Assembly: GCA_014138725.1 (NCBI GenBank)
Contig: JACJID010000001.1
Coordinates: 1,116,001-1,180,000, forward strand
Origin: Kutzneria viridogrisea
GTDB taxonomy: Bacteria > Actinomycetota > Actinomycetes > Mycobacteriales > Pseudonocardiaceae
Length of the DNA: 64,000 nucleotides
Direction of reading: 5' to 3'
A program made the translations under genes and the position numbers. The notes under the pieces were generated by a model that saw nothing but the letters and a program-made list of their open reading frames with translations, made no database searches and was not told the DNA's origin. The stretch's first letter is position 1; each line of letters starts with the position of its first letter. Below are positions 9,590 through 33,214 of the stretch, piece by piece.

Positions 9590-10030
9590 TCAGGCTTTGA
9601 TCTCCTTGCGGGTGTCCTGCCCACTGCCGATCTCGATCTTGCGGGGCTTGGCCTGCTCGGCGATGGGAATCCGCAACGTCAGCACGCCCGCGTCGTAGTC
9701 GGCCTTGATCGCCTCGGTGTTCAGGGTGTCGCCGAGGAACAACTGCCGGGAGAACACACCCAGGGGCCGCTCGGATACTTGCATCTCCACCGACTCGGTG
9801 GAGATGGTGGGCCGCCGCTCGGCCTTGACGGTGAGCACGTTGCGCTCGATGTCCAACTCGATCGCGTCGGGATCGACGCCGGGCAGATCGAAGGCGACGA
9901 TGAACTCGTCCCCGGCGCGGTAGGCGTCCATCGGCATCGCCGTGGGACGCGACCAGGTTCCAGCGGTGTTGTTGAAGACCTGCTGGGTCAACCGGTCCAA
10001 CTGCCGGAACGGGTCGGTGCGCATCAACAT
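9590..10030 (-). CDS. Hsp20/HSP18 small heat-shock protein
   Basis: 146 residues from ATG 10030, with GGGAGG five bases upstream. It carries a complete alpha-crystallin domain ([15 protein letters not shown], then [11 protein letters not shown]) with the [12 protein letters not shown] strand and a C-terminal IPI anchor. It is a cytoplasmic ATP-independent holdase. It faces the RheA-like regulator across a 97-base region carrying the RheA-type operator, so it is expected to be heat-induced by loss of that repressor. Confidence 0.95.
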
Positions 10031-10080
10031 GACTTCCTCCCTGTGGTGTTCTGGTGCCAACGCGCAACTCCGGTATAGCA

Positions 10081-10099
10081 TGTCATCGAAACGATGACA
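10081..10099. promoter_or_regulatory. RheA-type operator copy 1
   Basis: TGTCATC-N5-GATGACA, exactly the inverted repeat I recall as the RheA (hsp18 repressor) site of Streptomyces albus. It is perfectly symmetrical over 8-bp arms and is located between the divergent hsp20 and regulator genes. Confidence 0.8.
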
Positions 10100-10793: not shown

Positions 10794-11954
10794 AGCAGGT
10801 TGCCAGAAGTTGTGTCTGTAACTCGCGTGAGTTGACCTTGCCGTGAACGTGAAGAGCCTCGTCGGGTTGGATTCGGTTACCACACCAGACTCCACCACGA
10901 CGAGGCCTCCACCAGTATGCGCCCCGCGCATGTCTACGCCGACTTGACCCCTGCCCAGCACCTCGAACTGGTCACCGCGCTGCACGGACCCTGGCGAGTC
11001 GCCACCCGCATCGTCATCGTCTTGCTGTCCGCGTCCGGGATGAGCGCGCCCGAGATCGCGGAACTTCTGCACTACGAGCCGGTCACGGTGCGCCGCTGGA
11101 TCACCCGACACACCCGCGACGGCATCAACGGGCTACCCGACCGACCCCGCAGCGGACGCCCCCGCCTGGGCAGCCCCACGCTCGGACACCGCATCCACAC
11201 CCTGCTGCACACCCCGAAAGCCTGGACCACCGCACGACTGTGGCGCGCCGCCCGACGCCCCGAAATGAGCCTGCGCACCTTCTACCGGCGACTGCGTGAA
11301 CACGCCAGCTGGCGGCGTCCCCGGCTGATCGCCAAAGGCGACCCCGACCACGACACGACCTGCGCCACGATCCAGGCCCGCCTCGCCGCACTCCCCACCG
11401 GCTCCGTGGTTCTGGCCGAGGACGAAACCCACCTCGACCTGCTGCCGCGGGTCCGATCGTGCTGGATGCCCACCGGCCTGCGTCACCGGATCCTGACTCC
11501 CGGCAGCAACATCCGCCGCACCATCCACGGCGCGATCGACCTCACCACCGGCGCCTGGCACCACCACGTCTCCGTCAAGAACGTCTCCGTGGTGTTCTGC
11601 TACTTCCTGCAACAGGTACTCGACGCCTACCCCGACGCCCCTGTTGTCGCGGTGATCTGTGACAACGGCGGCACCCATCACAGCGGGATCACTCGCCGCT
11701 GGCTGGCCGAACACCCGCGCCTGTTACTGATCGAGGGCGCGAAATACAGCCCGCAGGACAACCCCGTCGAACGCGTCTGGGCCGGCCTCAAGCACCACAT
11801 CGCCAACACCGCGCCAGCCACGATGGCCGGCCGCGTCCGACAGGCACACGCCTACTTCCGCGACCGGAGCACCGAACAGAACCTGATCACCGCCGCGCCC
11901 TGGACCAGCCCCTGGCTACCCGAAGGTTTCGGACAAGACTTTTGGCCACGTGCT
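10794..11954 (+). mobile_element. IS630-family element (type A)
   Basis: Terminal inverted repeats CTAAGCAGGTTGCCAGAAGT and CTAAGCACGTGGCCAAAAGT (right end, reverse complement) include the TA target dinucleotides at 10792-10793 and 11955-11956. It inserted just past the stop of the RheA-like gene without disrupting it. Confidence 0.85.
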
Positions 11955-11957
11955 TAG
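10917..11957 (+). CDS. IS630-family transposase
   Basis: 346 residues. An N-terminal homeodomain-like HTH (MSAPEIAELLHYEPVTVRRW) precedes a DDE core: Asp in LAEDETHLD, Asp in VICDNGGTHH and Glu in QDNPVERVW. The stop codon TAG overlaps the right-end TA. It is full length and single-frame. Confidence 0.9.
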   Translation: MRPAHVYADLTPAQHLELVTALHGPWRVATRIVIVLLSASGMSAPEIAELLHYEPVTVRRWITRHTRDGINGLPDRPRSGRPRLGSPTLGHRIHTLLHTPKAWTTARLWRAARRPEMSLRTFYRRLREHASWRRPRLIAKGDPDHDTTCATIQARLAALPTGSVVLAEDETHLDLLPRVRSCWMPTGLRHRILTPGSNIRRTIHGAIDLTTGAWHHHVSVKNVSVVFCYFLQQVLDAYPDAPVVAVICDNGGTHHSGITRRWLAEHPRLLLIEGAKYSPQDNPVERVWAGLKHHIANTAPATMAGRVRQAHAYFRDRSTEQNLITAAPWTSPWLPEGFGQDFWPRA

Positions 11958-12199
11958 CCAGGTGGTGTCGCGCCTCGGCGTCGGCTCTGGCTGGCCTCCT
12001 CTCGCAGTAGTCATTGGTCGCCCGGCCACCAGCGCAGGATGCCAGCCAGAGCCGGACAGCACCTGCTCGATCGACCGCCATGGTCACCGTCGCACGGCCG
12101 CGCGGCCGGAGCCCGGGTTCGCTGGTGTCCGTGATCGCAGCTCTGGCCAGCCGGTCACTGACGCACCCAACCCGCCGAGAAAATCTATGCTGGCCGAGG
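11958..12199. other. Gene-less region between IS630 and the RNA candidate
   Basis: No supported coding sequence on either strand. It leads into the promoter-like sequence at 12200. Confidence 0.5.
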
Positions 12200-12229
12200 T
12201 AGACATTCTGCGATGGATGTATGTAGTCT
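12200..12229 (+). promoter_or_regulatory. Possible promoter for the RNA candidate
   Basis: TAGACA (12200-12205) resembles a -35 box and TAGTCT (12224-12229) an actinobacterial -10 box, 18 bases apart. Transcription would begin near 12236, 17 bases before the first strong helix. Confidence 0.4.
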
Positions 12230-12235
12230 TCTACC

Positions 12236-12826
12236 CGTAGCGAGAGAGACAATGTCGAGCAGGCACGGGAGATGACGGAACTACCCGTGAGGTGAGACAG
12301 GCGGTCGAGGCAAGACCAGTGCAGCAGTGAGGTCATGCTCGACAGCCGGGAAGACCGGGACCAGTGAGTGAACGATCGAGGTAGTACCCGGTTCTGATGA
12401 TGAAGTAGCAGTACGTGGGTGGAGATGTCGCGCCCACGCAGCAGGTGAAGTGAGTAGGAGAACGGTTGGTTGGGGCCGGAACCCATCAGGAGAAGCGGTT
12501 CCGGCCCCGGTAGTGAGCGAGGCGTCATGCGTGCTGGGACCGGTCTCGGTAAGAGGTCCCGACGCGCGACGTTCGTGGTAGTACACGGTAAGTGGACAGC
12601 ACATGAGAGAAGGGATGGGTCACGTCATTGGATCGGCCGCCCAGGCCCCATCGGGCCGGGCGGGTACCGCAGTCCCATCAGATTGGTAGGTGGTGCTCGG
12701 TTACGAACACGCGATCCCCGCGATGTCTGCCCGTCGAGCGCACGCGGGTACCACAACCCGATCTCACGATCGGGAAATGATGAAACCCAAAACCCTGGGG
12801 CCCCGGTGCTGCAGCGCCGGGGCCCT
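12236..12826 (+). ncRNA. Candidate large structured noncoding RNA
   Basis: About 590 bases have stops in all + frames and no plausible minus-strand gene, but are dense in perfect helices joined by purine-rich G/A segments. Helices: 12253-12261 with 12336-12344 (9 bp, enclosing 12264-12269/12284-12289); 12354-12359/12387-12392; 12414-12421/12431-12438; 12472-12483/12497-12508 (12 bp); 12536-12541/12555-12560 extended inside by TCT/AGA and outside by GCGT/ACGC; 12637-12663 (11 bp nested); 12757-12763/12768-12774; 12798-12825. The motif GGTAGTAC-N-CGGT occurs twice (12380 and 12577). It lacks hallmarks of RNase P RNA, tmRNA, 6S or SRP RNA. It may be a trans-acting RNA or a very long leader of the MerR gene. 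Inferred from one sequence only. Confidence 0.5.
12797..12826 (+). terminator. GC hairpin ending the RNA candidate
   Basis: GGGCCCCGG (12798-12806) pairs with CCGGGGCCC (12817-12825); inner GC pairs and a TGCA loop extend the stem to 14 bp. It ends 12 bases before the MerR start, so it could be a terminator or attenuator rather than part of the RNA fold. Confidence 0.6.
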
Positions 12827-12837
12827 GTGACCGTGAG

Positions 12838-13176
12838 GTGACTTTGATCCCGGACCCACGTGACACGGCCGCCGCAGACGCGGCCGACAAGTTCGATGAC
12901 GAGCACTACCCCGCCTACACGATGGGGCGGGCTGCGGAGATGCTCGGCACCACTCCGGGATTCCTGCGCAGCCTGGACGAGGCGAAACTGATCGAGCCGC
13001 AACGCTCCGCCGGCGGCCACCGCCGTTACTCCCGCTACCAACTGCGCATCGCCGCCCGAGTACGGGAACTCGTCGACCAGGGCACCGGTCTGGACGCCGC
13101 GTGCCGCATCGTCAGTCTCGAAGACCAGCTCCACGAAGCGCAACAGCTCAACGCCGACCTCCGCCGCTCCGACTGA
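12838..13176 (+). CDS. Small MerR-family regulator
   Basis: 112 residues if GTG 12838 is used; TTG 12844 has a better-placed GAGG. A MerR-type winged HTH (YTMGRAAEMLGTTPGFLRSL, then GHRRYSRYQL) is followed by a short helix that would dimerise (EDQLHEAQQLNADL). There is no effector domain and no cysteine. Proteins of this type occur singly in actinomycetes. The very long upstream hairpin-rich region is the notable context. Confidence 0.85.
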   Translation: MTLIPDPRDTAAADAADKFDDEHYPAYTMGRAAEMLGTTPGFLRSLDEAKLIEPQRSAGGHRRYSRYQLRIAARVRELVDQGTGLDAACRIVSLEDQLHEAQQLNADLRRSD

Positions 13177-13179
13177 CCC

Positions 13180-13205
13180 TCCGCGCGGTCCTCGGATCGC
13201 GCGGA
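13180..13205. terminator. Hairpin after the MerR gene
   Basis: TCCGCGCG and CGCGCGGA arms (8 bp) with a 10-nt loop, four bases past the stop codon. Confidence 0.65.
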
Positions 13206-13498
13206 ACGGAAGCGATTCCCACAGTTCATCGTTTCTCGGCCGCTTACCCGGCTGCCAACATGAGCACCGACGCCGGAACGCTCCCCCTCCTGATCATCTA
13301 CCCGCGGCCAGCCAGCGGAATCCCGTTCGCGAAGCCACCGTGCAGAGGGTTTCGAGCATTCGCACCGTGCAGTCGCCTCCGAAGATAGACCAGGACGGCG
13401 ACACGCCCGGAAATACCAACACTACCGGAGCAACGGCATCACCGGCTGTAATGCCGACCGTCACATGCTGAAGGTCATCAACTCGTTAGTTCAGAAAA
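13206..13498. other. Intergenic, no feature seen
   Basis: No coding frame, tRNA or clear repeat was found between the MerR terminator and the prepilin peptidase scrap. Confidence 0.5.
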
Positions 13499-13728: not shown

Positions 13729-14466
13729 CTACTGATCGGCGCGACCAGGAGCACGCGCCGCCAAGGTAGGGATCGCGGCGATCTTTTCCGGGCTCAAGTG
13801 GTCCCAGATCAACCCGGCGGGGCGACGCGCAGGGCCACAGCGGATGACTTCGTCCGGCGTGACGATCAGGTCGACGCTGAAGTCGTGCTCGGTCTCCGGC
13901 AGCGCAGTGTCAACGACCTGTAGAGCGTGCACGGTGGTCACGATGACGGTATCCGGTCCGATCACCCCAGCCTCTTGAAGGAGAGCCACTTCCAGGTCGG
14001 AGTAGCCAGCCCCCTTCCCCAAACGGACGCCGTCACGGTTGACCGCCACGCTGCCGCAAATAATCAGGTCGATCGGACGGAGTTCGTCTACGCCGACATT
14101 GGGTGCCACGTCGGCGGCGCCCTGGCTGGACGCGGCGACATCGGGCGGAACGGGCAGTGTCGTCGGGTCGAGCAGGTAGAAGGGGTGCTGCTTCGCGAGT
14201 TTCGGCACCGCCATGTAGACGACCTTGTTCTCGCGCAGGGCTCGGACTCGGGCGGGGAGCTGGGCTTTGTCCGGGACCGCCTTGATCACGCGGCTGGCTT
14301 GCCACACGGGCAACTCGGCTAGCCGGTCGGCGGCGGCTTCGGCGCCGACGAAGTTCGGGATGCGGCCGTGGACGTCGGTGTCGAGTGCGGCGTTGTGCTG
14401 TTCGAGAAGGTCCCAGATGCGTTCGCGGATGGCGTTCTTCGCGTCGTCGACGTTTTTGCTTGTCAC
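13729..14466 (-). CDS. 5-formyltetrahydrofolate cyclo-ligase family protein
   Basis: 245 residues. The family fold is recognisable from AKNAIRERIWDLLE at the N-terminus, KVVYMAVPKL in the middle and the ATP/folate-site motif GKGAGYSDLE, followed by VTTVHALQVV. Members convert 5-formyl-THF to 5,10-methenyl-THF using ATP; this longer actinobacterial branch is less well characterised. It lies 10 bases after the XRE/TPR regulator gene, in an operon-like pair now cut off from its promoter by the IS630 insertion. Confidence 0.8.
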   Translation of the reverse strand: MTSKNVDDAKNAIRERIWDLLEQHNAALDTDVHGRIPNFVGAEAAADRLAELPVWQASRVIKAVPDKAQLPARVRALRENKVVYMAVPKLAKQHPFYLLDPTTLPVPPDVAASSQGAADVAPNVGVDELRPIDLIICGSVAVNRDGVRLGKGAGYSDLEVALLQEAGVIGPDTVIVTTVHALQVVDTALPETEHDFSVDLIVTPDEVIRCGPARRPAGLIWDHLSPEKIAAIPTLAARAPGRADQ

Positions 14467-15621: not shown

Positions 15622-16728
15622 TTGAGTCGAAAGTGATCGTTTGCCTGTATGTTGCTCACTTGTGATCGAGGTCGAGGACGCGCGTCGTCTGTCGCCCGCT
15701 GAGCGGGAGGTGCTGCGGTTGCGGGTAGTGGCCGCGTTGGAGTCCGGCACCGTCACCGGCTATCGGCAGGCGGCCGAGGTGTTCAGGGTGGCCGAGCGGT
15801 CGGTGGGCGCGTGGTGGCGGGCGTATCGGGATGGTGGCCGTGAGGCGCTGGCGGTGCGGCGGGCGCGCCGCCCTGGACCGGCCGAGCTGATCACTGCCGC
15901 CGAGCGGGGCACGCTATTCATGGCGATGGCCGACTACACGCCCGAGGAGTTGCTGATCGGTGGCCCGTTGTGGACCCGGGCGGCGGTGGTCGAGTTGATC
16001 CGGTTGGTCACCGGGGTGGTGATGACCGAGCAGGGCGTGGGGCTGTGGTTGCGTCGTCACGGGTTCACCCCGCAGCGCCCGGCCCGGCGCGCCTACGAGC
16101 AGCAACCGGCCGCGGTGCGGGCCTGGCTGGACACCGAGTATCCGGCGATCGCGTCGCGAGCCAAGGCCGAGGGCGCGGTGGTGGCCTGGGTTGACCAGTG
16201 CGGGTTGCGCTCGGATGCGGCCCCGCCGGGGCGGTCGTGGGCGCCCAAGGGACACACGCCGGTGGTGCGGGTGACCGGGAAACGGCTGCGGGTCAACGTC
16301 ATGTCCGCAGTCGCGTCCCGGGGTGCGTTGTGGTTCACCGTGTTCACCGGCCGGTTCACCGCGCCGGTGTTCACCGCGTTCCTGGCCCGGCTGGCCCGGC
16401 AGGCCGGGCGGAAGGTGTACGTGATCGCCGACCGGCACCCGGTCCACCGCAGCAGGGTGGTGCGTACCTGGCTGGAAGCCAACACCGACCGGATCGAGTT
16501 GCACCTGATGCCCGGCTACAGCCCCGAGTTGAACCCCGACGAGCTGCTCAACGCCGACCTCAAACGCAACATGCCTGCCGGTCGTGCTCGCACTGTGGAG
16601 CGGCTCGCCCGGGACACGCGCCGCTTCCTGCGCCGCCGCCAGCGCCAGCCACACCTCGTCCGTGGCTACTTCCAGGCACGCCACGTCCGCTACGCGATCA
16701 TGTAGGCAACCAAACAGTTTCGGCTCAA
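15622..16728 (+). mobile_element. IS630-family element (type B), copy 1
   Basis: 1107 bases between TA dinucleotides at 15620-15621 and 16729-16730. Ends are TTGAGTCGAAAGTGATCGTT and, inverted, TTGAGCCGAAACTGTTTGGT. Copies 2 (41022-42128) and 3 (54548-55654) have the same length. The left flank is the start of an XRE gene and the right flank the middle of a response-regulator gene, so the flanks do not derive from one target. Confidence 0.9.
15662..16705 (+). CDS. IS630-family transposase (type B, copy 1)
   Basis: 347 residues from GTG 15662 (TTG 15641 would add seven). An N-terminal HTH (TGYRQAAEVFRVAERSVGAW) precedes the DDE core: VAWVDQCGL, VIADRHPVHRS and SPELNPDELLNADLK. The sequence is identical to copy 2 at the protein level. 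Intact, so probably recently active. Confidence 0.9.
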   Translation: MIEVEDARRLSPAEREVLRLRVVAALESGTVTGYRQAAEVFRVAERSVGAWWRAYRDGGREALAVRRARRPGPAELITAAERGTLFMAMADYTPEELLIGGPLWTRAAVVELIRLVTGVVMTEQGVGLWLRRHGFTPQRPARRAYEQQPAAVRAWLDTEYPAIASRAKAEGAVVAWVDQCGLRSDAAPPGRSWAPKGHTPVVRVTGKRLRVNVMSAVASRGALWFTVFTGRFTAPVFTAFLARLARQAGRKVYVIADRHPVHRSRVVRTWLEANTDRIELHLMPGYSPELNPDELLNADLKRNMPAGRARTVERLARDTRRFLRRRQRQPHLVRGYFQARHVRYAIM

Positions 16729-32723: not shown

Positions 32724-33214
32724 CGCTCGCAGCGGTGCATCGAGGCGTTCGCCAGCGCAGCGGACAGCTGTTGCCCGAGTGCCCTGAGCAGGAAGAACTC
32801 GTCCGGTGACGGACCGCGTGAGGCTTTCACCACCAGGCGGCCGATGCCGGCGCCCAGCCCGGTCAGCGGATAGGCCCAGCGCCACATGCCGTCCGCCAGG
32901 ACGATCTCGCCGCCGGCCTCGCCCAGGTCGCGGACGTGCCGGTCCAGCTCGGGATCCGGTACCGGACCGCGTGGCACCGGCTCCAGTCGGCCGTCCGCGA
33001 CGACGTAGACGGCCACCACCTCACCGGCGTTCAGCGACGGCACGGTGGTGACAGCGAGCCGGACGATGTCGTCGGCCTCCCGGCCGTCGAACATCATCAT
33101 GGAGATCGCGAGCAGTCCGTACAGGTTCGCCAGCTGCTGTCGCCACCAGCCGCCCGGTCCGCCTTGGCCCTGCACCGAAACGGTGGTCCTCCATGCGTTC
33201 CCCTCGCCAAGCAC
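32724..33214 (-). pseudogene. GAF-domain sensory protein truncated by the IS scar
   Basis: From ATG 33214 about 163 residues read as the N-terminal GAF-like region of PucR/CdaR-type or similar regulators (LANLYGLLAISMMMFDGREA, EVVAVYVVADG, LTGLGAGIGRLVVKA, LRALGQQLSAALANA). At 32723 the gene meets the IS end and the frame runs into IS and tRNA sequence without further homology. The expected C-terminal output domain is absent. It is divergent from the stress operon and might once have controlled it. Confidence 0.7.

Follow-up and report, generated by a model that had tools for sequence, protein, structure and literature searches.

The locus lies in the 10.2 Mb genome of Kutzneria viridogrisea (G000, contig C1), within a stretch of 64,000 nucleotides that was analysed as a whole and is called the window here. 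A small merR gene on the forward strand is preceded by a structured RNA of about 600 bases and a promoter/operator site, and the other neighbours typed in the window are two transposase-like genes, an Hsp20 gene, a cyclo-ligase gene and a gene for an HTH/TPR protein. The gene adjoining merR belongs to the 5-formyltetrahydrofolate cyclo-ligase family (13732-14466, reverse strand; Pfam 80.9 bits). The transposase-like genes, with DDE_3 domains, are located on either side of the RNA-merR region at 10917-11957 (+) and 15641-16705 (+), the former sitting between this region and the Hsp20 gene (9590-10081, reverse strand). An inverted repeat, GGCTCTGGCTGGC / GCCAGCCAGAGCC, occupies approximately 11983-12054, after the first transposase-like gene and ahead of the promoter site. 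A scan for tRNA and tmRNA genes gave no hits. The same stretch is present in a Kutzneria MAG (locus L018), and the 641-base query is 86% identical to locus L009 from the same genus. A second copy was not found in the host genome, where the next-best DNA match covers just 23 bases and the 3' core model R1 gives one match at E <= 0.001. A weak R1 match elsewhere in the window (32972-33097, forward strand; 20 bits, E 0.005) is probably a chance hit. The features of the locus are the following, where paired cells and same-branch double changes refer to alignments of related leaders and "slid" to displaced controls:

12180..12207 (+): promoter/operator site AAAATCT-N13-TAGACATT, an imperfect inverted repeat (AAAATCTA...TAGACATT)
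12200-12205 (+): likely -35 element TAGACA, within the operator site
12224..12229 (+): likely -10 hexamer TAGTCT, 18 bp past TAGACA, from sequence and column conservation
12236..12830 (+): structured RNA, from fold score and nhmmer conservation upstream of the relatives' merR genes, with both ends predicted
12264..12289 (+): conserved 5' hairpin with loop AUGACGGAA (192/192 cells paired in 25 leaders; double changes 2 vs 0 slid)
12472..12508 (+): 12-bp helix of the variable middle domain (216/248 cells paired; double changes 5 vs 0-2 slid)
12535..12561 (+): middle-domain helix (139/172 cells paired; double changes 1 vs 0 slid)
12616..12790 (+): 3' core (R1 self-match of 145.9 bits at 12614-12791)
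12623-12629/12776-12782 (+): P1, closing the junction of P2, P5 and P6
12630-12636 with 12711-12717, unit 12630..12717 (+): P2 (169/175 cells paired; innermost pair G-G here)
12637-12663 (+): P3, enclosed by P2
12664-12704 (+): P4, enclosed by P2
12718..12747 (+): P5 hairpin (helix 8, two-sided changes in 10/12 pairs; 77.2% of cells paired)
12757..12774 (+): P6 hairpin (helices 9 and 10, two-sided changes in all 7 pairs)
12798..12825 (+): GC-rich terminal hairpin, followed by the merR ribosome-binding site (276/300 cells paired; double changes 3 vs 0-2 slid)
12838..13176 (+): small HspR-like merR gene, 112 aa from GTG 12838, with TTG 12844 as the likely true start

The predicted fold of 12236-12832 (forward strand) has an energy of -269.4 kcal/mol, compared to -237.0 +/- 6.8 for 100 dinucleotide shuffles (z -4.78), and none of the 100 shuffles folded as low. 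Together with the conservation and the paired changes described below, this confirms the central observation of the initial annotation, which had proposed a large structured noncoding RNA upstream of merR. Its view of the stretch as lacking plausible coding also holds, as the conserved core lacks a consistently open frame, the best one being open in only 21 of 56 relatives. When contiguous standard pairs were counted from the ends proposed for each helix, the 9-bp (12253/12344), 8-bp (12414/12438), 12-bp (12472/12508) and 7-bp (12757/12774) helices proved exact. Three others exist in shortened form: the hairpin given as 14 bp has 13 contiguous pairs, the helix given as 13 bp with a bulge (12529-12565) has four outer contiguous pairs, with the middle-domain helix 12535-12561 lying inside it, and the nested helix given as 11 bp (12637-12663) has six pairs followed by an interruption. 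Two exact copies of the repeated motif GGTAGTAC-N-CGGT are present, at 12380-12392 and 12577-12589. Allowing one mismatch gives three matches in the window where 0.08 are expected, which is unlikely to occur by chance.

Conservation was evaluated helix by helix in 25 long leaders, being those with a leader cut out among 26 hand-picked names. The 9-bp helix 12253/12344, previously described as a closing helix, is not conserved (92/155 cells paired, 59%) and lies outside the MFE fold. For the 8-bp helix 12414/12438, 82/120 cells are paired, and for the four outermost pairs of 12529/12565, 29/80. The initial annotation did not list P1 and P2, the outer helices of the 3' core, nor the hairpin at 12264-12289, whose pairing is the best conserved in the 5' part. 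P1 alone shows little covariation, and neither P1 nor P2 has double changes among the 25 long leaders, for P2 because it is nearly invariant. The internal loops within the P2-P4 unit are conserved as well. In one consensus fold, pyrimidines at 12230-12238 pair with the ribosome-binding site at 12830-12838; this pairing is weak in the window, and part of 12230-12238 precedes the predicted transcript start. The terminal hairpin was also considered as an intrinsic terminator. A scan for T-run terminators found none at this position, so that it does not qualify by the T-run rule, though the terminator-like GC-rich stem is present and conserved.

Related leaders were collected through the merR gene, using the best 80 of 457 confirmed merR relatives. 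An nhmmer search with 12200-12840 against 99 loci gave 82 matching stretches, which among the matches listed lie mostly just upstream of merR. Coverage by relatives climbs sharply near 12170-12180, at AAAATCT....TAGACATT, and continues through to the merR ribosome-binding site. The extrapolated MerR start follows the site (<=4 substitutions) at 83 nt in a single instance and at approximately 300-950 nt otherwise. The shorter leaders that were inspected retain the 5' end and the 3' part, which identifies the middle as the variable part of the RNA. Five Nocardia loci (L059, L065, L075, L086 and L087) have the promoter site, a leader of about 350-425 nt and a terminal GC hairpin, but give no R1 match. 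In L059, L086 and L087 the 5' hairpin is similar to that of the window, and the Nocardia leaders probably represent the same RNA in diverged form.

The 3' core was studied in three alignments. A1 was built with MAFFT from 69 cores of >=170 nt, reduced to 66 by removal of the outliers L061, L081 and L053, to 60 by a 93% identity filter and to 56 by dropping L041, L039, L037 and L032 with their long insertions; its RNAalifold consensus is the 53-pair structure evaluated here. A2 (72 rows, 69 after removal of window 32972, L081 and L084) and A3 (107 rows, 104 after removal of the first L135 copy and identical rows) were aligned to the model, and their counts therefore lean toward the structure. 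In A1, 87.9% of cells are paired, compared to 81.9% in shuffled and 29-42% in slid controls, the structure itself being derived from this alignment. Two-sided changes occur in 201 cells of A1 against 79.2 in shuffled controls, pairs being kept through changes as in a structured RNA. Double changes from one standard pair to another on the same branch of a FastTree tree number 32 in A1 (1-8 slid), 57 in A2 (0-7 slid) and 55 in A3 (0-6 slid). No pair reached E < 0.05 in an R-scape-like G-test of our own with APC, either under one null applied to A1 or under a second applied to A1, A2 and A3; the best structural pair under the first null on A1 was 12761-12770 (E 3.4). The evidence for covariation, whose absence the initial annotation had regarded as decisive against an RNA, thus rests on the compensatory double changes rather than on any single significant pair.

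The covariance-model comparison suggested in the initial annotation returned no known family: Rfam 15 gave no match in the whole window at gathering, and at E <= 10 the seven matches in 11900-13250 were all far below gathering scores and none was plausible. Furthermore, such an RNA is not named in the portions of the open-licence PubMed Central literature that were available. The proposal of an undescribed RNA is in agreement with these results, with the compensatory changes in a conserved structure and with its occurrence in 83/394 genomes. Overall, the sequence seems to specify a genuine RNA of about 600 bases with an elaborate fold, found again in many soil actinobacteria and without a match to any Rfam family.

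The distribution of the RNA was determined with R1 in a sample of Actinomycetes genomes. This search gave 123 matches in 83 of 394 genomes and 20 of 138 genera, with up to five per genome; the window's own copy is included, and the fast filters used lose some weak matches. One weak tandem copy (L135, 23.3 bits), obtained from a search of the fetched loci, brings the set to 124 copies. In a phylum-wide sample 11 of 396 genomes match. They belong either to the host genus or to a single further genus in its class, and the class sample had already included each of them. One locus labelled Acidimicrobiales (L055, 84.8 bits) may reflect a binning error. At L173 (G369 C1), two cores of 111.6 bits each are found in opposite orientation, approximately 2.7 kb apart. 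A single strict core pattern had no matches in viral contigs.

The RNA is closely linked to merR. In 109 of the 124 copies a MerR start, extrapolated to query residue 1, is found 12-162 nt (median 37) past the core, two of these linked matches being weak (L218, 32.1 bits; L219, 30.9 bits). The linkage extends to whole genomes: MerR is detected at E <= 1e-20 in 93 of 394 genomes, namely 82 of the 83 RNA-positive and 11 of the 311 RNA-negative genomes, so that 11 MerR-positive genomes are without a core match. The sole RNA-positive genome without MerR at this threshold is G221, whose core (locus L211, 86.5 bits) has a poor promoter site.

The encoded protein has a MerR-type DNA-binding domain (Pfam MerR_1, 45.6 bits; cut-off 21.6). 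Its TTG at 12844 aligns with the ATG of the relatives on a reading of the sequences, rendering the GTG at 12838 the less likely start. The protein is nearest to HspR and reaches 51.8 bits with the NCBIfam HspR model NF047375, below the cut-off of 105. No relative was found in the PDB by sequence at E <= 0.001. Of 83 clustered neighbourhoods (82 loci and the window), 18 contain ORFs for DEAD-box helicases, 15 for cold-shock proteins and 7 for Hsp20, with cluster names assigned from one annotated locus and a Pfam match. In one Streptomyces locus the order is merR - hypothetical - csp - csp - helicase - CBS - SCO5918 family. This arrangement, with merR beside csp, helicase, CBS and SCO5918 family genes, suggests placing S. 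coelicolor SCO5917 in the same merR group. That gene, named as an HspR homologue, is reported to show the strongest polysome association of any gene at 42 C versus 30 C (9.2-fold; PMC6009599). Several Streptomyces merR genes in csp/helicase clusters have no leader, and those of L064, L067, L071 and L074, beside csp, helicase and CBS genes, have neither a site nor a core match.

From the likely -35 and -10 hexamers, transcription would start near 12236. A promoter at 12200, as the initial annotation had it, is plausible in this form (TAGACA at 12200, an 18-bp distance and TAGTCT at 12224), although a strict scan for the sigma-70 consensus found no promoter. Sites were collected with <=2 substitutions (n=220). 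The pattern AAATCT-N11-15-TAGACATT with <=1 mismatch occurs within 1000 nt upstream of 106 of the 124 core copies, whereas the reversed-pattern control upstream of the 124 cores gave 0. The same pattern downstream of cores was found six times, and most of these instances are presumed to belong to the following cassette in a tandem locus. Within 1300 nt upstream, the site (<=1 mismatch) is present in 69 of 81 sequences, the window included. The host genome contains one exact site, the next having two mismatches. In 16 hand-chosen RNA-carrying genomes, 28 of 31 sites (<=1 mismatch) lead into an RNA core by position, so the site appears to be dedicated to the RNA cassette; of the other three, two precede a merR gene with the terminal hairpin only and one precedes no recognised merR. 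Locus L251 (G267 C1:8792400-8797400) has an exact site at 2044, with no core listed nearby and no merR downstream, and is possibly a remnant or another target. The HspR-like MerR encoded downstream probably binds the conserved site. HspR itself is associated with the HAIR element, which differs from the site found here.

No merR lies within 400 nt in 15 of the 124 copies, and 11 of these 15 have kept the site. Five are the upstream members of tandem pairs (L189, L180, L146, L182 and L135), each with its own site 175-185 nt before the core match. At L168 two cassettes lie together without merR, the downstream gene being on the other strand. The terminal hairpin is present in each cassette of the four tandem loci inspected (L146, L189, L168 and L182), and the tandem units are thus cassettes of site, RNA and hairpin. 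In addition, the single copies L176, L186, L198 and L199 have an exact or one-mismatch site, the core and the terminal hairpin, and the 2.5 kb that follow contain no significant match to merR. L211, L215, L216 and L220 are without a good site and score approximately 30-87 bits. Some scores in the merR-less group are low (23-52 bits for L135, L182 and L146; 29.7 bits for L220), and several of these copies look decayed. Of the changed pairs in the 12 merR-less copies of A3, 41 of 76 are still paired (0.54), compared to about 0.67 pooled in merR-linked copies (0.53-0.73 by identity bin) and 0.18 for random single changes. Such a somewhat lower retention is expected if some of the copies are relics, and part of their pairing history may predate the loss of merR. 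Given this history and the decay of some copies, the autonomy of the merR-less copies is likely rather than proven.

The interpretation that we favour, with moderate confidence, is that of a new structured-RNA family with a transcript of its own, in which the HspR-like MerR is autoregulated, merR is expressed by read-through and the RNA acts in its own right. Transcription would start about 30 bases past AAAATCT-N13-TAGACATT, which overlaps the -35 element and is probably bound by the HspR-like MerR encoded downstream. Three parts are predicted in the folded RNA: a 5' hairpin and a multi-branched 3' core, both conserved, and a lineage-specific middle between them. Most transcripts would stop at the GC-rich hairpin and some would read through into merR, by which the regulator would control its own synthesis together with that of the RNA. 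The RNA may then act as a molecule itself, either in trans or in a complex with protein, and its role would probably concern stress physiology. An RNA gene of this type is favoured by the combination of structure, distribution, linkage to merR, co-occurrence, a dedicated site and the existence of merR-less copies, the last of which argues for an own role of the RNA. Against it count the lack of any significant pair in the G-tests, the alignment of A2 and A3 to the model and the derivation of the structure from A1, as well as the decayed merR-less copies, a terminal hairpin without a T run and the fact that only one RNA-positive genome (G221) is without MerR. A stronger version, in which a new class of large actinobacterial RNAs acts in trans and has its own dedicated MerR switch, with the RNA as the main, tandem-multiplied product and merR as an accessory expressed by read-through, is a tentative proposal that we consider somewhat less probable than not.

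The main rival is a purely cis-acting leader (an attenuator, riboswitch or temperature-sensitive element) that sets merR expression and of which the merR-less copies are relics. This is in line with the 109 copies directly before merR, with conserved junctions and internal loops that resemble a sensing fold, with the decay of some merR-less copies and, should that gene carry the RNA, with the polysome association of SCO5917 (PMC6009599), which may be an orthologue. However, several merR-less copies retain site, structure and hairpin, and at L092 and L253 a merR gene has the same site without the RNA. Moreover, the predicted accessibility of the merR ribosome-binding site hardly differs between 30 C (mean 0.40) and 42 C (0.42) in 68 leaders, a set in which the window's own leader is counted twice and ribosome-binding sites were picked by a simple motif. 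A purely cis-acting role is regarded as the less likely of the two readings. The initial annotation had offered an unusually long leader controlling MerR as its other option; the merR linkage fits this description, while the 15 copies without merR, 11 of them keeping the site and some in tandem cassettes, do not, and the RNA is probably more than a leader. An RNA thermometer was considered separately and set aside, since no opening on warming is predicted; the accessibility modelled for the window's 8-base site falls from 0.57 at 30 C to 0.47 at 42 C.

Two further explanations carry very little weight. The stretch might be no RNA at all, being either coding or a set of palindromic DNA-level repeats or operators, and high GC content does yield long chance frames. 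This is highly improbable in view of the lack of a consistently open frame, leader lengths ranging from approximately 300 to 950 nt and compensatory changes across a multi-helix fold. A divergent member of a known family such as Ms1/6S is just as improbable. 6S RNA is shaped as a long rod with a central bubble, and the fold described here is a multi-branched junction. Ms1 is, like the present RNA, structured and widespread in actinobacteria, and the cyclo-ligase family gene at 13732-14466 is of a type that commonly neighbours 6S RNA in other bacteria (PMC9130861). However, cyclo-ligase was not recognised among the ORF clusters common to >=5 neighbourhoods, of which only some were named, and a plausible Rfam match is lacking. 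The same source places Ms1 beside HAD hydrolase and oxidoreductase genes, unlike the neighbours in the window, and the word MerR is absent from its main text (PMC9130861).

Partial likeness is found to several other systems. The HspR autoregulated operon (NF047375) shares an HspR-branch MerR protein and a palindrome-like site at its own promoter, but here a structured RNA lies between promoter and gene and the protein scores well under the family cut-off. The cold-shock gene cspA is known for a long structured leader. The present RNA resembles such leaders in this respect, and some Streptomyces merR genes lie beside cold-shock and DEAD-box helicase genes; it differs in being much longer and more elaborate, in having no predicted temperature effect at the ribosome-binding site and in occurring in copies without the gene. 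OLE, GOLLD, ROOL and raiA are large orphan bacterial RNAs of hundreds of bases with elaborate conserved structures, whose function is unclear or was long unclear. The RNA described here is of a similar sort in size and elaboration of its conserved structure, but is distinguished by the absence of an Rfam match and by its association with merR and with a putative operator for the encoded protein.

About a fifth of the sampled Actinomycetes genomes contain this structured RNA family, which Rfam lacks. Experiments can build on its defined promoter site and dedicated regulator, and on natural copies that either have or lack the gene for this regulator. The family may also bear on the strong translational heat response of HspR-like genes such as S. 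coelicolor SCO5917, if these genes carry the RNA.
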